This document shows positions 1-9,652 of a DNA stretch of 9,652 nucleotides, one piece after another (within the stretch, counting starts at the first letter, position 1; every line of letters starts with the position of its first letter). Made by a program: the position numbers and the translations under genes. The stretch is taken from NCBI GenBank assembly GCA_027037705.1, contig JALVYZ010000275.1, forward strand, positions 1 to 9,652, written 5' to 3'. Source of the stretch: a bacterium (GTDB lineage: Bacteria; DYJV01; JALVYZ01). Below the pieces are notes generated by a model. That model worked only from the letters and a program-made list of their open reading frames with translations. It made no database searches and was not told the DNA's origin.

Positions 1-1
1 A

Positions 2-196
2 GTGGCAGCGGCGCTCGCCAAGCCACAGTACCGCGGCGTAGAGCGGCTACGAGAACTAGGCCACGAGCCAATACGCATAGTAGACCTCTACGTAGAGAGA
101 CAGGGAGACAAGGCAGTGCTCCGCCTAGAGGGAAGAGGCAAGCTAGAGGGGAGAAGAGAGATAATAGAAACGAGGATACAAAATCCGAGGCAATGA
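2..196 (+). CDS. 3' end of an unrecognised gene (partial)
   Basis: This frame is open from the window edge to a TGA at 194-196 and gives about 64 residues. The GTG at position 2 could be a start, but it has no visible leader, so the gene more likely begins upstream. The C-terminal half, from about residue 21 (EPIRIVDLYVERQG) to residue 57, alternates hydrophobic and charged residues as paired beta strands would. It is rich in Arg, Glu and Lys and ends IQNPRQ. I see no signal peptide, membrane segment or cysteine motif, and I do not recognise the family. Codon use (CTA, AGG, ATA) matches the other genes in the window, so it is probably a real coding end rather than noise. Confidence 0.5.
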   Translation: MAAALAKPQYRGVERLRELGHEPIRIVDLYVERQGDKAVLRLEGRGKLEGRREIIETRIQNPRQ

Positions 197-3547: not shown

Positions 3548-5452
3548 TCACTTGTTTTTCTCCGCTACCAGATTAGTCATAATTACTGATTTCTCCACGC
3601 CGAGGGCGCTGTACGTTAGGAGAAGCACTGGGTTTTTCTCGGGCACGTAGCTTATTTCCAAGAGGAGCTTCATGCCATGACCATTAATTACTAGCTCGCC
3701 GCTCCTTAAGGCCACGAATGGGCTCCTGATCGCGTAGTCCAGGGTGGCGAGGAATGGTTCCCAGCGGTCTATCCGGTTGATGTGTGGTTGTAGTAGCTTA
3801 TCGGGGAGGCTCATAGCGCTCCTCGGGGGAACTATATAGAAATGTCTCATCCTTGTCGTGTTTATCCTTGCTCCCCTGAGGTCTAGGGCTAGGTTGCCCG
3901 GTGCCTCGTCAAGCACGTCTATCTTGTTCTGTACCCATTTCACCACAAATACGAGCCCGGTGGGCGACAGGGTAGAGGGATTAATGGGCTCGAGGGCGAG
4001 AACCTCCCTGGGCTCGCGGCTATTTAGGTATGTAGCACACTCTCTGTACAATATGTCTAGCTTTGTAAGCGTCGTCGAGCTGTTAGTTAGTATGGTTACT
4101 TGTAGGGGCTCAGCAGAGAGTATTGATTCAAGCATAACTACGTAGAGCCAGGGATAGGCCAGGGAGGCGCTGCATCCCCCTATACCGCTGCAGACAGGGA
4201 GCCCGTTAACAAGTACCTCTATCTCGGCGTTATTGCTCGCCTCCACTCTTATTACGAGGGTGTTGTTCGGCCTTAGTGAGGCGAAGCGATACGACATGAG
4301 GTAGACTGGTATCGTTATCCCAGGCCTCTTCACAGGAACCTTGTTGGGCACAACTGCCTCTAGGGTGGTTACATTCCTGCAACTCGTCTTCGCGTTGCTA
4401 GGAAGTATTGCGCCTGCATTCGGTGGCCACGCTAGTATGTCTCCCCTCGACACATTGGTTCTGAGATCCATTCCTATATCGGCGATGAGGCCTGGAGCGA
4501 TGCCCAGGATATCTAAGTGCCCATAGATACCGTCTAGCCGCGAGCTAAGGTATCTCTTATCTCCGGTCATTGAGTAGATGCCATAACTAGCTTTATCGCG
4601 TGGAAGCTTGTAGAGGTAGAAGCCGCCAACGGAGTTAATAAGGCCGCCAAGGCTTGCTTGGCAGGGAGTGAATAGACACTCTATCGTTACTTTTCCTTGG
4701 AGAACGAGGGGGATTCCCTCTCTGTTCATATATGCCTCGAAGGGGCTCGGGGTTAGCCGTGTTGCTCTCTTTAGGGCTACTTCTCCCCTGACTAGCTCTC
4801 TTAGCTTCTCTATCGATGAACTATCCCCGGGTAGTTGTACTAGGCCTGCTAGTTGTCTTGGCGATGCTAGTAGTACTATGTGGGTCCAGTTGCTACCAAG
4901 TGGTAGGGGGATTGCGTTTGCCGCGTACATCTTGCTGGGCTGTACCGCCTCGAACACGGTATCGTCTACAGGCTCTGAGCGCGCGATTACCGCCGCCCTG
5001 CCTAGCTCCGTGGAGTTGAAGCCCCTTGCTCTGCAAGGCAGTATTGCTAGCCATGTGTCGCCAGGGCTCCACTTATAGATCGTTGTCTTGACGGGGCCTG
5101 GCACGTGTGCTCCGTAGAGCAGGGGTCTCGCAGCCCCACTGCCTATTGTTGCCCAGCCAGTAGCGGAGCTACCCCATACCCTTGCCTCGTGAAGCGGCCA
5201 CGGGACTAGGACGGGTAGCTGGTACTCATCGGCGCTGAGGTTGTGGGCTATGAGGACTGTGTTCCATGGACCGAGGCCCCCCGGGAACTTTACCACGTAG
5301 GCGGCGCTCGCGCATAGCCCTAAGGCCTTGGGGGTTCCTGGCTCTGTGCGCGGTATGGCCTCGTAGGCCAGTATCGCTGCCACAATGTCTAGGGCGAGGA
5401 GGACTAGGAGTAGGATAATCTTGGCCCGTGTACTCATGGCTCTCTGGCTCAC
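3548..5452 (-). CDS. Membrane-anchored, probably extracellular protein, paralogue B (unknown function)
   Basis: This 634-residue protein is the paralogue of 760-2697 over its full length. It has a hydrophobic anchor near residues 11-30, then GLGPWNTVL (59-67), LVPWPLH (82-88), TWLAILPC (133-140), VIARSEP (155-161), SNWTHIVLL (187-195), RPGITIPVY (376-384), GLPVCSGIGGC (417-427), YPWLYVVMLESIL (433-445) and LLQPHINRIDRWEPFL (553-568). Cysteines 47, 140, 358, 421, 427 and 472 match those of paralogue A; 259 and 264 form an extra CX4C. The region between about residues 195 and 350 is the least conserved. GTG at 5452 gives this length, while an ATG at 5437 would remove five residues and fits the upstream TATA about as well. 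The AIR-synthase-like gene ends 53 bases upstream on the same strand, but a TATA-like box in the gap argues for separate transcription. No enzyme motif is visible; a cell-surface role is inferred. Confidence 0.85.
   Translation of the reverse strand: MSQRAMSTRAKIILLLVLLALDIVAAILAYEAIPRTEPGTPKALGLCASAAYVVKFPGGLGPWNTVLIAHNLSADEYQLPVLVPWPLHEARVWGSSATGWATIGSGAARPLLYGAHVPGPVKTTIYKWSPGDTWLAILPCRARGFNSTELGRAAVIARSEPVDDTVFEAVQPSKMYAANAIPLPLGSNWTHIVLLASPRQLAGLVQLPGDSSSIEKLRELVRGEVALKRATRLTPSPFEAYMNREGIPLVLQGKVTIECLFTPCQASLGGLINSVGGFYLYKLPRDKASYGIYSMTGDKRYLSSRLDGIYGHLDILGIAPGLIADIGMDLRTNVSRGDILAWPPNAGAILPSNAKTSCRNVTTLEAVVPNKVPVKRPGITIPVYLMSYRFASLRPNNTLVIRVEASNNAEIEVLVNGLPVCSGIGGCSASLAYPWLYVVMLESILSAEPLQVTILTNSSTTLTKLDILYRECATYLNSREPREVLALEPINPSTLSPTGLVFVVKWVQNKIDVLDEAPGNLALDLRGARINTTRMRHFYIVPPRSAMSLPDKLLQPHINRIDRWEPFLATLDYAIRSPFVALRSGELVINGHGMKLLLEISYVPEKNPVLLLTYSALGVEKSVIMTNLVAEKNK
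3551..3560 (+). terminator. T-rich tract just after the membrane-protein gene
   Basis: CTTGTTTTTC, with five consecutive T at 3555-3559, begins 11 bases after the TAG at 3537-3539. Archaeal RNA polymerase terminates at T tracts on the non-template strand. The tract also encodes the last lysines of the convergent gene, so its presence could be incidental. Confidence 0.3.
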
Positions 5453-5467
5453 TGTCCCCTGCTCGAT

Positions 5468-5480
5468 TGATATACAGTGT
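5468..5480 (-). promoter_or_regulatory. TATA-like box upstream of paralogue B
   Basis: On the minus strand the gap before the gene reads CACTGTATATCA. Its centre, near 5473, predicts transcription from about 5447-5449, just inside the GTG at 5452 and about 11 bases before the ATG at 5437. This favours the shorter protein or a slightly displaced start. Confidence 0.35.
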
Positions 5481-5505
5481 TTATCGGGCTACTTAGCCCT
5501 ATTCC

Positions 5506-6519
5506 CTATTCGCCTCTCCTCTCCCAGAGCTTCATGACCTCGTCCTCTACATAGGGCTCCTCCAGGGTCTCAACTACGCCGTTGACACGGTGCAGCTCTA
5601 CTAGGTGCCCTTTGTACTCTATCATCTCGCCTATGACTGTGGCTTTTACCCCGATACTCTCTAGTTTGCTAATGGCTTCTCCTAGCTTTGCCCGCGGTAT
5701 TGTTGCTAGGAGTGCCCCGGAGCTAAGGGAGCGCAGCGGGTCCAGGTTCATCGCTTCGAGGACTTCCTTGGCGGCTGGGTGCAGGGGTATCTTTTCCTCG
5801 TAGAGCCTTATCGTGGTCCCCGAGGCATAGGCTATCTCGGCTGCGCCCCCGAGTACTCCTCCCTCGGTCGGGTCATGCATGGAGCTTGCTAGCTTGTTCT
5901 CAGCGAGTAGTAGTGCCTCTGGCACGACGCTCACCATTTCCTGTAGCCTAGCCGCTTCTCGCAGCGCCTCCTCGCTGACTCCTCTTCTCCGGAGCTCCTC
6001 TGCGTAGTCGGTCGCGAGCACCGCTGCTGCCTCCATCGCGGCGTACTTGGTCAGTACTAAGGCGTCGCCGGGCCTCGCGCCACGCGTTGCTACAAAGGAG
6101 TCCCTCCCCGCTACACCGATGGCTGTCACAGCTATCACTGGCTTCTCCACCCCGGGAGCATGCTCCGTGTGGCCACCAACAATGCTTGCCCCGAGCTCCT
6201 CGGCTGCACGGGCCGCGTCACGCATAACAGCCTCTATTGCCTCGGGGCCCGAGCCACTGGGTACTAGTAGGGCTACGAGGAGCCAGCGGGGACGAGCACC
6301 AGTAGCAGCGACATCGTTAGCGGCTACATGGACTCCTAGCCAGCCGAGAAGCCTAGAAGCACCAGTAACAGGGTCAACGTGGACGACGAGGACACGGGTC
6401 TCGTCAAGCTCTATGACCGCGGCATCCTCCCCGATACCCGGGCCAACAACCACGCTCAGGTCACGCGAGCCAAGCAGCGAGAACAAGGACTCGAGCACAC
6501 CGGGCCTAGGCTTAGTCAA
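5506..6519 (-). CDS. AIR synthase-related / HypE-like ATP-binding protein
   Basis: This 337-residue protein belongs to the superfamily of PurM, ThiL, SelD and HypE. The N-terminal half carries GPGIGEDAAVIE (26-37), HVDPVTG (47-53), AANDVAATGARP (66-77) and GGHTEH (115-120). These are the glycine- and aspartate-rich motifs that bind ATP and Mg2+ in this family. The C-terminal half carries MHDPTEGG (214-221) and SSGALLATIP (266-275), typical of the HypE-like branch. Canonical HypE ends in a cysteine that carries the carbamoyl/cyano group for NiFe-hydrogenase assembly. This protein ends ...VMKLWERRGE, with no cysteine anywhere, so it cannot do that chemistry in the usual way. I infer an archaeal HypE paralogue whose substrate is unknown. 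TTG at 6519 is the start: GGAGGTG lies 11 bases upstream, and no ATG, GTG or TTG lies between it and the preceding in-frame stop. Confidence 0.88.
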   Translation of the reverse strand: MTKPRPGVLESLFSLLGSRDLSVVVGPGIGEDAAVIELDETRVLVVHVDPVTGASRLLGWLGVHVAANDVAATGARPRWLLVALLVPSGSGPEAIEAVMRDAARAAEELGASIVGGHTEHAPGVEKPVIAVTAIGVAGRDSFVATRGARPGDALVLTKYAAMEAAAVLATDYAEELRRRGVSEEALREAARLQEMVSVVPEALLLAENKLASSMHDPTEGGVLGGAAEIAYASGTTIRLYEEKIPLHPAAKEVLEAMNLDPLRSLSSGALLATIPRAKLGEAISKLESIGVKATVIGEMIEYKGHLVELHRVNGVVETLEEPYVEDEVMKLWERRGE

Positions 6520-6530
6520 GGAGAACCCAG

Positions 6531-6537
6531 CACCTCC
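6531..6537 (-). promoter_or_regulatory. Ribosome-binding site deciding a TTG start
   Basis: GGAGGTG on the minus strand is the full complement expected for the crenarchaeal 16S rRNA 3' end. It sits 11 bases before TTG 6519, a slightly long spacing, and supports TTG as the true start of the HypE-like gene. Confidence 0.6.
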
Positions 6538-6760
6538 CAGAGCCCTATACAGGCACGAGGCACCGATAATTACCTAGGCCTCTTCCGCGACCGAGCCATA
6601 TTAGCTGATATTTCTCCCTTAGTTATGTCCTAGTTTTAATCTAATTGCTTTCACTTATACCAGTAAAGGCTCTCCATGAACTAGTCTCTGGCTAGTACGC
6701 GATTAGGTACATTTATTGTTTCTTCTTGTCCTCTCTACGAGCTACCAGGGGGCGGCCTAG

Positions 6761-6889: not shown

Positions 6890-7140
6890 CCCCGTCAAGG
6901 AGAGTGTGTCCACGGTGTTCCTCGCCCTTAAGCGTCTCCAGCTCTTTTCGGGCCAACGAACACGTCCATGGAGAGTTTTCGCCCATGAGGCGGCGCCTCG
7001 GAGACGCTGAGACATCTACGGCTCTGTGCATGGAGTAAATACGTGATTAGGAAGTATCCCTGCATGGCGTAAACCCGGGCATAGTGCCTGGATTCGGGTG
7101 GATGAGTGCTTCTGGGTGATGTCCTTGGTAGGGGCGTGGC

Positions 7141-7150
7141 AAATAATAAA
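7141..7150 (+). promoter_or_regulatory. TATA-like box upstream of the acidic small protein
   Basis: AAATAATAAA stands out in a GC-rich surrounding. Transcription would begin near 7170. That lies after the GTG at 7159, so the longer reading of the downstream gene is unlikely to be translated. Confidence 0.4.
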
Positions 7151-7248
7151 GTAGAGTAGTGTGTAGGGAAGCGAACCAGAAACCGTATCACATAGCACTA
7201 CGAGAAGTATTACCTGGGGAAGCGGCTACTCCAGAGGGTGCAACGGGT

Positions 7249-7641
7249 ATGGTGGAGCCACTGGGTAGGTACTCGCCGAGGCTAGTAGCGAGCCTAGTAT
7301 GCAGGGAGGCCGGGGACCTCTGCATCGAGGAAGACGAGCTAGGAGAGGAGGAGCTCCTAGCCCTCGTGGGCATGGAGCTAGCGGTGATGGAGACCTATAG
7401 CTTCGTTGCCTCCGAGCTAGGCCTGGAAGCTATAAAGGAGTGCCTAGAGAGCGACGAGTGCCTAGACCAACTAGTAGACACTACTCGTGAGGCCGCCATG
7501 CTCTACGTCGAGAACAAGTACTTCTTCACCGTGAGCCTAGACGAGGTAAAAGAGGTAGCGGATTATTTACGCAGACACCTAGACGGCCACGACGGAGCAC
7601 CCCCGCACAAGAGACAAGAGATAGGAAAAGCCCTCACCTAG
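7249..7641 (+). CDS. Small acidic helix-rich protein, unknown
   Basis: I place the start at ATG 7249, giving 130 residues. GAGGGTG lies about 9 bases before it, and the upstream TATA box makes the in-frame GTG at 7159 too early. The stretch from about residue 22 to 75 is strongly acidic (DLCIEEDELGEEELLALVGMELAVMETY, ECLESDECLDQL) and should be mostly helical, followed by REAAMLYVENKYFF and a second helix ending YLRRHLDGH. The tail (GAPPHKRQEIGKALT) is basic and probably disordered. Four cysteines occur as two pairs, 18/25 and 65/71, which could be disulfides or metal ligands. I do not recognise the family. It is the last protein gene before the giant inverted repeat and is read in the same direction, so its product could be related to that locus, but nothing in the sequence proves this. 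Confidence 0.7.
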   Translation: MVEPLGRYSPRLVASLVCREAGDLCIEEDELGEEELLALVGMELAVMETYSFVASELGLEAIKECLESDECLDQLVDTTREAAMLYVENKYFFTVSLDEVKEVADYLRRHLDGHDGAPPHKRQEIGKALT

Positions 7642-7844
7642 CCCCGCGGAGAGCCAAGACAAGGAAACAAGGCTCCCCTCGAACCAGGCAACAACGCCGC
7701 GCCCCGAAGCCCCTCCGCACATAGCACTCCTTCTCCCACACCACCCCTACACAACTAGGACGCGTCACGTAGCAAGAAACCACGAGAGAATCCAGCACTC
7801 CTCATACCCCCTAACTCTTAAAGCACTATCAAAACAGTAGAAAG
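7642..7844. other. Intergenic stretch before the structured locus
   Basis: About 200 bases with no gene on either strand. It is rich in A and C on the plus strand (for example CACTCCTTCTCCC near 7725) and poor in G after about 7700. Because the inverted repeat reaches the window edge, part of this stretch could pair with sequence beyond 9652; I cannot test that. Its end carries the TATA-like element at 7815. Confidence 0.35.
7815..7824 (+). promoter_or_regulatory. Candidate TATA box for the giant structured RNA
   Basis: CTCTTAAAGC, followed by an AT-rich stretch to about 7843, is the only promoter-like element near the left edge of the structured locus. Its centre predicts transcription from about 7845, just before the first stem begins at 7861. 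The upstream purine (BRE) element is weak. Confidence 0.35.
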
Positions 7845-7860
7845 GAGGCCTAAAGGGGGA

Positions 7861-7988
7861 GCCCACCCCTAGCCACACAGCCCCTCTCCCAGGAGGAGCC
7901 ACCCTGCCTCCTGGGAGCAGGGAGCCCTGGACCCCGCCCCGGGGACCCCCTCTCGGGGAAGGAAGAGTCCCCGCGGGGAGGGGTGGGC
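7861..7988 (+). other. Left basal multi-hairpin domain
   Basis: A perfect 10-base stem (7861-7870 with 7979-7988) closes a domain. Inside it lie an 11-base perfect stem (7886-7896 with 7907-7917, loop AGCCACCCTG) and a smaller nested set of GGGG/CCCC stems (7941-7946 with 7967-7972; 7947-7950 with 7955-7958). It ends just before the long arms begin and looks like an independent fold at the 5' end of the RNA. Confidence 0.6.
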
Positions 7989-8001
7989 CCTGAGGATCCT
8001 C

Positions 8002-8747
8002 AAAGAGAGCCACGCACGGGGGTGATGCACCCAGAGAGACACGGCTCCGAGGAAACCGGGTTGGTCACAGGCCCTCGCTAGCCAGGAAGCACTAACCAGC
8101 GCCGAGAGCACCAGGAGAGCCCCGAGCCCAGGAGCCAAGAGAGGGCTCCACGGGGAGGGCAACAGGACCCGCCGCGGCAAGGAGGCCGAGCCGAGCCCAA
8201 GCCCACCAATCAACACCCACGATGCGCAGAGGCGGGGCCCAGCGAGCCCAGGGATTCCCCCGAGGACTCCGGGAAAGCACCCCCAGGGACCAGGGGCTAC
8301 GGTGGGCTGGCCAGGCCCTCCATGCCTCCCTGCGGCTAGGTGCTCCAGGGCGTCCCAAGGAGGCACCCGGGGACCCATCCCTGGCAGCCTCAGGGGACCG
8401 TGCTGGCCTACCCTCGAAGCCCAGGGACCATGCTGGCTGGCACAGCCCTGGCTCCAGGGGAGGAGCAACCCTTCGCCGGGGGGATAAGCGCCCTCGTGGC
8501 CCCGGTCAAGGGTCCCTGCCCCGAGGCGATTAAGGGCCCGGGCAGCCTCCGCTGCCTTAGAGGCCTAGGCATGGGCTCCGTGAAGCCTCTCGGTGCCGCC
8601 AGGAACCCCAGCAATAATACGATAACAATGTGCCACGGCTCCGTTGAGGAGAACCCTCCCGCGCTAGGCCCCGAAGCCAATTCCACCAGCACGCGGTTGC
8701 CGAAAGCCCCTGGCCCAAGGCGCCCCAGGGACCAAGCCCTCTAGGGA
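8002..8747 (+). repeat. Left arm of giant imperfect inverted repeat
   Basis: This arm is the reverse complement of 8805-9638 in order. The sum of paired coordinates drifts only from about 17640 at the base to 17552 at the apex, so the two arms are collinear with small insertions. The basal part is rich in A, C and G and poor in T: 8101-8160 has 15 A and 1 T. Confidence 0.9.
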
Positions 8748-8762
8748 CCCCGGGGCCTCCGC

Positions 8763-8781
8763 CGAGGCCGCATGAGCCTCG
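8763..8781 (+). other. Apical stem-loop of the giant repeat
   Basis: CGAGGC (8763-8768) pairs perfectly with GCCTCG (8776-8781) around the 7-base loop CGCATGA. It lies between the innermost paired arm segments (8737-8747 and 8805-8815) and so caps the whole rod. Confidence 0.55.
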
Positions 8782-8804
8782 GTGTATAGGAGAGCCCCCT
8801 TGGA

Positions 8805-9638
8805 TCCCTAGAGGGTGCCCCGGGAGGATTTGCCTCCCGGGGCCGGGTCCCTGGGAGCGTCGCTTCGGGCCGGGGGCCTTTTCGGCAACCGCATGAGGGG
8901 CTTGCGACACTTGTTCGCCTCTTGGCAGCAGTGCTTGGGAGGGGTTCTCCTCGACGGAGTAAGGTCTCCAGGGCCGCTAGGTCTCGGCCCAAGGGGTCTC
9001 TGGCGGCACCGAGAGGCTCTCCGGAGCTCTGCCCAGGCCGTATCGCGGAGGCTGTCGGGGCTCCGCGAAAGCCTTGGTGCATGGATCCTTGACCGGGGCC
9101 ACGGGGGCGCGCGTCTTCGACGAGGGGTTGCTCCGCTACCACCCCGTGGGCTGGGGCTGTGCCAGCTGGCTTAGGTGTCCCGGGGGCCTGAGAGGGTGCT
9201 GGCGCGCGTCCCTCTTGAGGCTGCTGGGGATGGTCATTGCTTCCCTGGGTGCCTCCTGGGGTGCCTTGGGGCTCTGGCCGCGGAGAGGCATAGGGGCCGC
9301 TGGCCCGCCGTAGCCTCTTGGCTCCCGGGGGTGTCTCTGGGGACTCGGGGGTTCCTAGGGCTTGCTGGGCCCTGCCCCTCTGCGCATCGTGGGAGGGGTG
9401 GGCTCCTAGGGCTGGCTTGGCCTCCTTGATGCGGCGGGCTCCTGCTCTAGGGGGCTCTCCCCGCGGGGCCCGGGGCTGTGTCCCTGGGCTCGGGGCTCTC
9501 CTGGTGTCTTCTTCGGCGCTGGGAACTGGGCTCCCTGGCCTAGTGGGGGCTCTGTGGCCGCCTGGTGTCTCCTCGGAGTGCGTGTCTCTCTGGGTGCCTG
9601 GGGGAGAACAAGGGTTCCCCGGGTGCGTGGCTCTCTTT
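8805..9638 (-). repeat. Right arm of giant imperfect inverted repeat
   Basis: This is the partner of the left arm. It is about 90 bases longer because of insertions such as the side hairpin at 8818-8842 and unpaired segments near 8893-8935 and 9598-9620. The basal part is T-rich and A-poor: 9421-9480 has 12 T and 2 A, mirroring the left arm. Confidence 0.9.
8818..8842 (+). other. Side hairpin in the right arm
   Basis: CCCCGGGAGG (8818-8827) pairs perfectly with CCTCCCGGGG (8833-8842) around ATTTG. The left arm has no counterpart, so it would project from the rod as a branch. Confidence 0.6.
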
Positions 9639-9652
9639 CCGGGCCCGGGGAA

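Follow-up and report, generated by a model that had tools for sequence, protein, structure and literature searches.

The window, a 9,652-nucleotide stretch of DNA (contig JALVYZ010000275.1), ends in an inverted repeat that we interpret, with a probability of about 0.8, as the gene for a giant archaeal non-coding RNA (ncRNA) of a new family, encoded on the + strand. Transcription of the RNA and its stability in the cell we infer, and its role is probably structural. A giant rod-like structured RNA of unrecognised class had already been the preferred reading of a first-pass annotation made from the window alone, and homologues in related genomes, fold energies, a bias towards G·U over A·C mispairs and a core common to rods of very different lengths all agree with it.

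The inverted repeat and its complete counterpart

Comparison of the window with itself returns a minus-strand match over 8027-9597 with 68% identity (E 2e-110), and a repeat search yields a collinear ladder of arm pairs whose coordinate sum hardly changes, with perfect runs of 24/24, 17/17 and 17/17, bearing out what had been described at first pass from the coordinate sums and long paired runs. In a global alignment the arms, which are roughly 70-80% complementary, give 600 identical, 144 mismatched and 159 gapped columns, with an alignment score of 544 as compared to a maximum of 33.5 among 100 shuffles. Folded as RNA, positions 8160-9440 form a single rod of -1021 kcal/mol, and the GC content of the rods is 65-70% (∼70% in the window) vs roughly 50% for the contig and 49-63% for other regions of the window. 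The repeat had been placed at 7995-9640 (∼1.64 kb); it is real, but these boundaries are too short, with the base stem beginning at 7858 and the contig end at 9652 truncating the element. Because the contig stops there, the remainder of the 3' core and the 3' strand of the base stem are missing from the window, amounting to ∼115 nt as estimated from a complete relative, locus L011. The features are as follows.

7249-7641, + strand: gene for a small acidic all-helical protein of 130 aa, adjoining the rod in 4 of 5 loci
7807-7823, + strand: promoter-like box (BRE/TATA) CCCCCTAACTCTTAAAG, ∼40 nt 5' of the base stem, with a putative promoter function
7858-7880, + strand: 5' strand of the base stem, GGAGCCCACCCCTAGCCACACAG; its partner, CTGTGTGGTTAGGGGTGGGCTCC in L011, lies past the window end
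7881-7922, + strand: side hairpin adjoining the base stem, an inverted repeat with 88% complementarity
7976-8001, + strand: 5' core half with palindrome GAGGATCCTC at its end; its sequence does not vary among L011, L205 and L206
7992-8001, + strand: invariant palindrome GAGGATCCTC, the last part of the 5' core half
8002-8770, + strand: left arm of the rod, A/C-rich, from the arm alignment and fold
8771-8774, + strand: apical loop; the apex (8701-8800) is 98% identical between two close relatives
8775-9638, + strand: right arm of the rod, G/T-rich, from the arm alignment and fold
9639-9648, + strand: invariant palindrome CCGGGCCCGG, opening the 3' core half, which is complete in L011

L011 (JALVSY010000007.1, genome G386, a Pyrodictiaceae MAG) is syntenic with the window (6953-9650 aligned, 89% identity) and sits inside a 1.24-Mb contig. 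Its sequence continues beyond the window end, so that the whole element is visible there: the rod opens at GGAGCCCACCCCTAGCCACACAG (window 7858), closes at CTGTGTGGTTAGGGGTGGGCTCC and is followed by a T-rich stretch, CATTTCTTTG. The full rod of 1904 nt has a minimum free energy (MFE) of -1437.5 kcal/mol vs -1011.8 ± 13 for 15 dinucleotide shuffles, and in the folding model 75% of its bases remain paired at 90 °C. Window 7801-7900, which includes the box and the base stem, is identical to L011 at 99 of 100 positions, and the rod as a whole at 88%. Noncoding DNA on the 5' side has diverged more slowly than the rod itself, which counts against the ncRNA reading. Indels between the two copies are mostly single-base and shift every open frame of at least 80 aa, so that the earlier statement that there is no gene inside holds for protein genes, with no conserved frame of that length surviving.

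The neighbouring 130-aa protein is 95% identical in L011, 88% in L204 and 42% in L205. Its gene has the same orientation in L011 and L204, is opposite and downstream of the rod in L205 and does not occur within 6 kb of the L206 rod. An AF2 model built from four sequences only is all helical (mean pLDDT 76), with no PDB fold match, and the protein may be a partner of the rod RNA. The end of a gene at window 1-196 (PRPP-related by eye) is also found near the L205 rod, and the locus therefore looks orthologous.

Several other features of the locus were recorded. A noncoding stretch 5' of the small protein gene (window 6998-7250) is ∼97% identical to L011, with 91.6% for the AIRS gene and 88% for the rod; it is single copy in the deposited bin (G000) and in G386, is partly recognisable in L204, and may represent a conserved leader or another non-coding RNA. 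L011 carries a 147-aa gene (PIN-like by eye, 9104-9547) that is absent from the window (6890-6950), and close to the same position L204 carries another insert (ATPase-like by eye). Two adjacent window proteins of 645 and 634 aa (760-2697 and 3548-5452, both - strand) are alike by eye, with no Pfam or NCBIfam match for either.

Source of the contig and homologues of the rod

The bin in which the contig was deposited belongs to a small phylum represented by only two genomes here. An AIRS-family protein in the window (5506-6519) is 93% identical to that of the L011 locus, and we therefore assign the contig to Pyrodictiaceae, in line with the archaeal chromosome supposed at first pass. The bin itself looks non-archaeal, because an RNase III gene is present both in it and in its order-mate (G001), with no RNase III family match in G386; judged from sequence, the window is probably a mis-binned archaeal contig. 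Searches of 60 and of 386 relatives of the bin returned chance matches of 22-43 nt only. Given how non-archaeal the bin looks, these searches were probably centred on the wrong domain, and a search of 397 genomes around G386 then found homologues.

Matches to the foot of the rod occur in three further genomes. In the complete genome of G399 (C1, 2,005,174 bases) the L205 rod is 1.02 kb long with an MFE of -794; it lies at 5066-6086 of the locus (C1 about 1,273,065-1,274,085, + strand), near the small gene at 6243-6680, and rod and box together are inverted relative to that gene when compared with the window, L011 and L204. The L206 rod (G407) measures 0.66 kb with an MFE of -526, while in L204 (G397 C184) the contig ends within the base stem at L204 3694, where GGAGCCCACCCCTAGCCACACAG begins. 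Comparison with dinucleotide-shuffled controls, proposed at first pass as a check on the fold, gives z values of -33, -26 and -25 for the three complete rods (L011, L205 and L206, respectively). Rod length thus varies threefold between species (0.66, 1.02 and 1.9 kb) with a constant core at the base. Two assemblies break within the rod, at the foot or the 3' core (L204 3694 and window 9652), which suggests that short-read assembly systematically loses hairpins of this size, and such loci may therefore be under-represented in draft genomes.

Sequence searches detect the rod in few family members only, which counts against the ncRNA reading; rods that keep their shape but not their sequence would be missed in this way. 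G402, G405 and G408 have no sequence match to the rod, apart from a weak one in G402 (E 0.016) that comes without an inverted repeat. In 800 kb (40%) of G405 there is neither a long inverted repeat nor a rod, and this too we count against the ncRNA. Two palindromes separated by 1.57 kb in G405 lie in unremarkable sequence with a low fold energy and are no rod. A core model built from sequence alone gave many weak matches (E above 4e-4) in GC-rich genomes, with no long inverted repeat at any of the loci examined, and phage and plasmid collections and viral contigs contain no match to the rod.

The homologues bear directly on whether the repeat might be an inverted duplication, of a gene or of a mobile element, that is without function and in decay. 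Arms that are only ∼70-80% complementary are what such decay would leave, and decaying inverted gene pairs do occur in G386, where a long inverted repeat with a short spacer (C7 1128379-1129954) turned out to be an inverted pair of diverged paralogous genes, ∼70% identical, and not a rod. Against this, diverged genomes have retained rods that share one core but measure 0.66, 1.02 and 1.9 kb, pairing is maintained between close relatives, there is no conserved reading frame, and the element is single copy with a GC content far above that of the genome. A MITE or other inverted-repeat mobile element would be expected in several copies per genome, and one copy is found in each of G000 and G386. 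Inverted repeats with arms of at least 100 bases and spacers below 1.5 kb are absent from 1.18 Mb of other, mostly archaeal loci, and a few other long inverted repeats (spacing up to ∼8 kb) occur in the contig of the close relative, of which 1.22 Mb was covered. We regard decay as very improbable; a lack of homologues together with neutral-like divergence, which the first-pass annotation had named among what would speak against its reading, is contradicted by the relatives and by the pairing that they keep.

Mispairs and pairing of the + strand

We have counted mispairs in an arm alignment that treats both strands alike. Strand-symmetric decay of DNA predicts equal numbers of G·U and A·C mispairs, so that an excess of G·U points to pairing as RNA and argues against DNA-level and neutral explanations. 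The rod columns of the window comprise 607 Watson-Crick, 55 G·U, 25 A·C and 47 other pairs, and those of L011 672, 67, 26 and 61, respectively. Mispairs common to the two include 29 G·U vs 8 A·C (P 7.5e-4), and the one-sided, recent changes between them 52 G·U vs 27 A·C (P 0.0066). The ratio is 48:9 in L205 (P 1.5e-7) and 18:12 in L206, the latter not significant alone and counted against the ncRNA reading. With L011, L205 and L206 taken together the count is 133:47 (P = 1e-10), in a test whose units are sites rather than lineages because the rods are homologous.

The outcome varies with how the arms are aligned. In a four-way MAFFT alignment, which was misaligned at gaps and was replaced by the symmetric one, the excess was smaller (window P 0.05, L011 P 0.006), and a null model of permuted substitutions on MFE pairs was dropped as it was biased towards G·U pairs. 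Strand-biased mutation caused by transcription could add to the G·U excess and would itself imply + strand transcription; a mutation bias caused by replication would not. Six pairs have changed on both sides between the window and L011 and are still Watson-Crick, and substitutions affect 8% of paired vs 15% of unpaired sites. In each complete rod the + strand folds to a lower MFE than the - strand (-1457 vs -1309 for L011, -794 vs -662 for L205 and -526 vs -485 for L206).

A palindromic DNA site that forms a cruciform or a binding array and serves in replication, in segregation or in folding the chromosome would account for the size and symmetry of the element, and its invariant palindromic motifs GAGGATCCTC and CCGGGCCCGG could bind dimeric proteins. 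Symmetric DNA pairing provides no cause, however, for more G·U than A·C (133:47) and no reason for the + strand always folding better, and the orientation of the box is fixed to the rod even in L205, whose rod is turned round with respect to the gene beside it. A DNA-level site is, we believe, improbable.

The conserved foot and a model of the rod RNA

The promoter-like box and the base stem are common to all loci and the core to all complete copies. A CCCCYAA..CTTAAA box lies ∼30-45 nt 5' of the base stem throughout, reading CCCCCTAACTCTTAAAG in L204, as in the window, CCCCCAAGCCTTAAA in L205 and CCCCTAACCCTTAAA in L206; the enrichment of TATA motifs upstream of ORFs was weak and insufficient for scoring it. 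The side hairpin is present in L205 and absent in L206. The core halves are separated by 1641-1647, 837 and 514 nt, and the foot sequences (5' side ...CGCGGGAGGG..GGGCCCCGAGGATCCTCA..., 3' side ...CCGGGCCCGGGGGGCCTGCCCCTCGGGG..GGCCGGCCGC...) are constant despite these differences in rod length. In L011, L205 and L206 11-12 nt per strand of the core are invariant, with palindromes GAGGATCCTC and CCGGGCCCGG opposite each other, so that rods of unequal length share this core together with its surrounding helices. Folded singly, the two halves being connected by a short artificial linker, the three cores adopt nearly identical structures that include three small symmetric internal loops, and an alifold consensus of these three sequences contains compensatory exchanges such as G-C/A-U/G-U, C-G/U-A and A-U/G-C. 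An apparent A-rich element common to L011 and L205 did not exceed shuffles.

Each of GAGGATCCTC and CCGGGCCCGG is a perfect 10-nt palindrome, and the differences between them preserve palindromy in both. Paired together within one rod they contribute -5.6 kcal/mol, and each with its own copy -17.4 and -23.9 kcal/mol; as pairing within the rod is poor and pairing with a copy in a second molecule is good, an exchange of strands between two feet is plausible. Because 1-3.5 ten-nt palindromes per rod are expected by chance, and these were spotted after the fact, dimerisation through them is put forward as a conjecture.

In the model that we propose, transcription would begin a little 3' of the TATA-like box at 7817, and its end would lie in the T-rich stretch that follows the base stem directly in L011. 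The RNA would fold as one long GC-rich rod, ∼1.9 kb here and 1.0 and 0.66 kb in relatives, standing on a conserved foot that consists of the base stem, an optional side hairpin and then the core helix, which is predicted to be broken by small internal loops and to hold the two invariant palindromes in opposition. Two feet might then exchange strands via the palindromes and so join two rods. Relatives of Pyrodictium live near the boiling point of water. A scaffold forming homodimers is a role that we suggest tentatively, on the basis of modelled energies, and it is similarly possible, if rather doubtful, that the family as a whole comprises kilobase-scale archaeal ncRNAs whose rigid, variable-length rods are joined at a palindromic foot to act as struts or scaffolds near 100 °C.

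Comparison with known RNAs

The rods of the window, L011, L204, L205 and L206 were scanned with the Rfam covariance models (4227 families including OLE, GOLLD, ROOL, SRP RNA, RNase P RNA and rRNA). No rod matched above the gathering score, the only match in the five loci being an unrelated tRNA in L206, and no description of such a rod RNA was found in the open-access literature. To our knowledge a single rod of ∼0.7-1.9 kb on a conserved foot is unlike any Rfam family.

Eukaryotic long hairpin RNA loci are long inverted repeats transcribed to near-duplex hairpins that feed Dicer. An archaeal analogue, in which a double-stranded precursor is cut to small RNAs, or a decoy in defence against invading RNA, would fit a near-duplex RNA extending over hundreds of base pairs. 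Nevertheless, there is no RNase III family match in G386, the match in G000 belongs to an apparently foreign bin, and, unlike the Dicer-fed loci, the rod has an invariant foot, its core and base stem being more in keeping with one definite fold than with a mixture of small RNAs. We therefore view a precursor or decoy as quite unlikely.

Obelisks and viroid-like RNAs resemble the rod RNA in shape and size, being long self-complementary rods of ∼1 kb or more, and Obelisks in particular are ∼1 kb rod-like RNAs with 68-72% of bases paired (PMC13096302). They are, however, RNA replicons, which have no DNA copy in the host, and Obelisks encode Oblin proteins; the rod sits in chromosomal contigs, at one DNA locus that has the same gene beside it in four genomes, and has a linear base stem and a promoter-like box. 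Neither a conserved frame nor a self-cleaving ribozyme was found among frames of at least 80 aa and the Rfam ribozymes. That the element is the chromosomal copy or descendant of a rod-like replicon (viroid, Obelisk or delta-virus like) is thus highly unlikely.

The giant ncRNA to which we give preference has its nearest counterparts in OLE, GOLLD and ROOL, which are likewise very large, DNA-encoded and built around conserved structured cores (PMC12286853). OLE forms RNA-only dimers in cryo-EM structures, and the palindromic kissing loops that OLE and GOLLD use in their homo-oligomers covary as palindromes (PMC12286853), the same principle of contact that we propose for the rod RNA, here from computed pairing energies. 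In contrast to all three, the rod RNA is essentially one unbranched rod with a threefold range of lengths and no Rfam match. OLE, GOLLD and ROOL are all bacterial, whereas the rod RNA is detected here only in archaea related to Pyrodictium and would be an archaeal giant structured ncRNA of a different architecture, one that bears on how large RNAs remain folded near 100 °C and on why the length of a rod can vary so freely.
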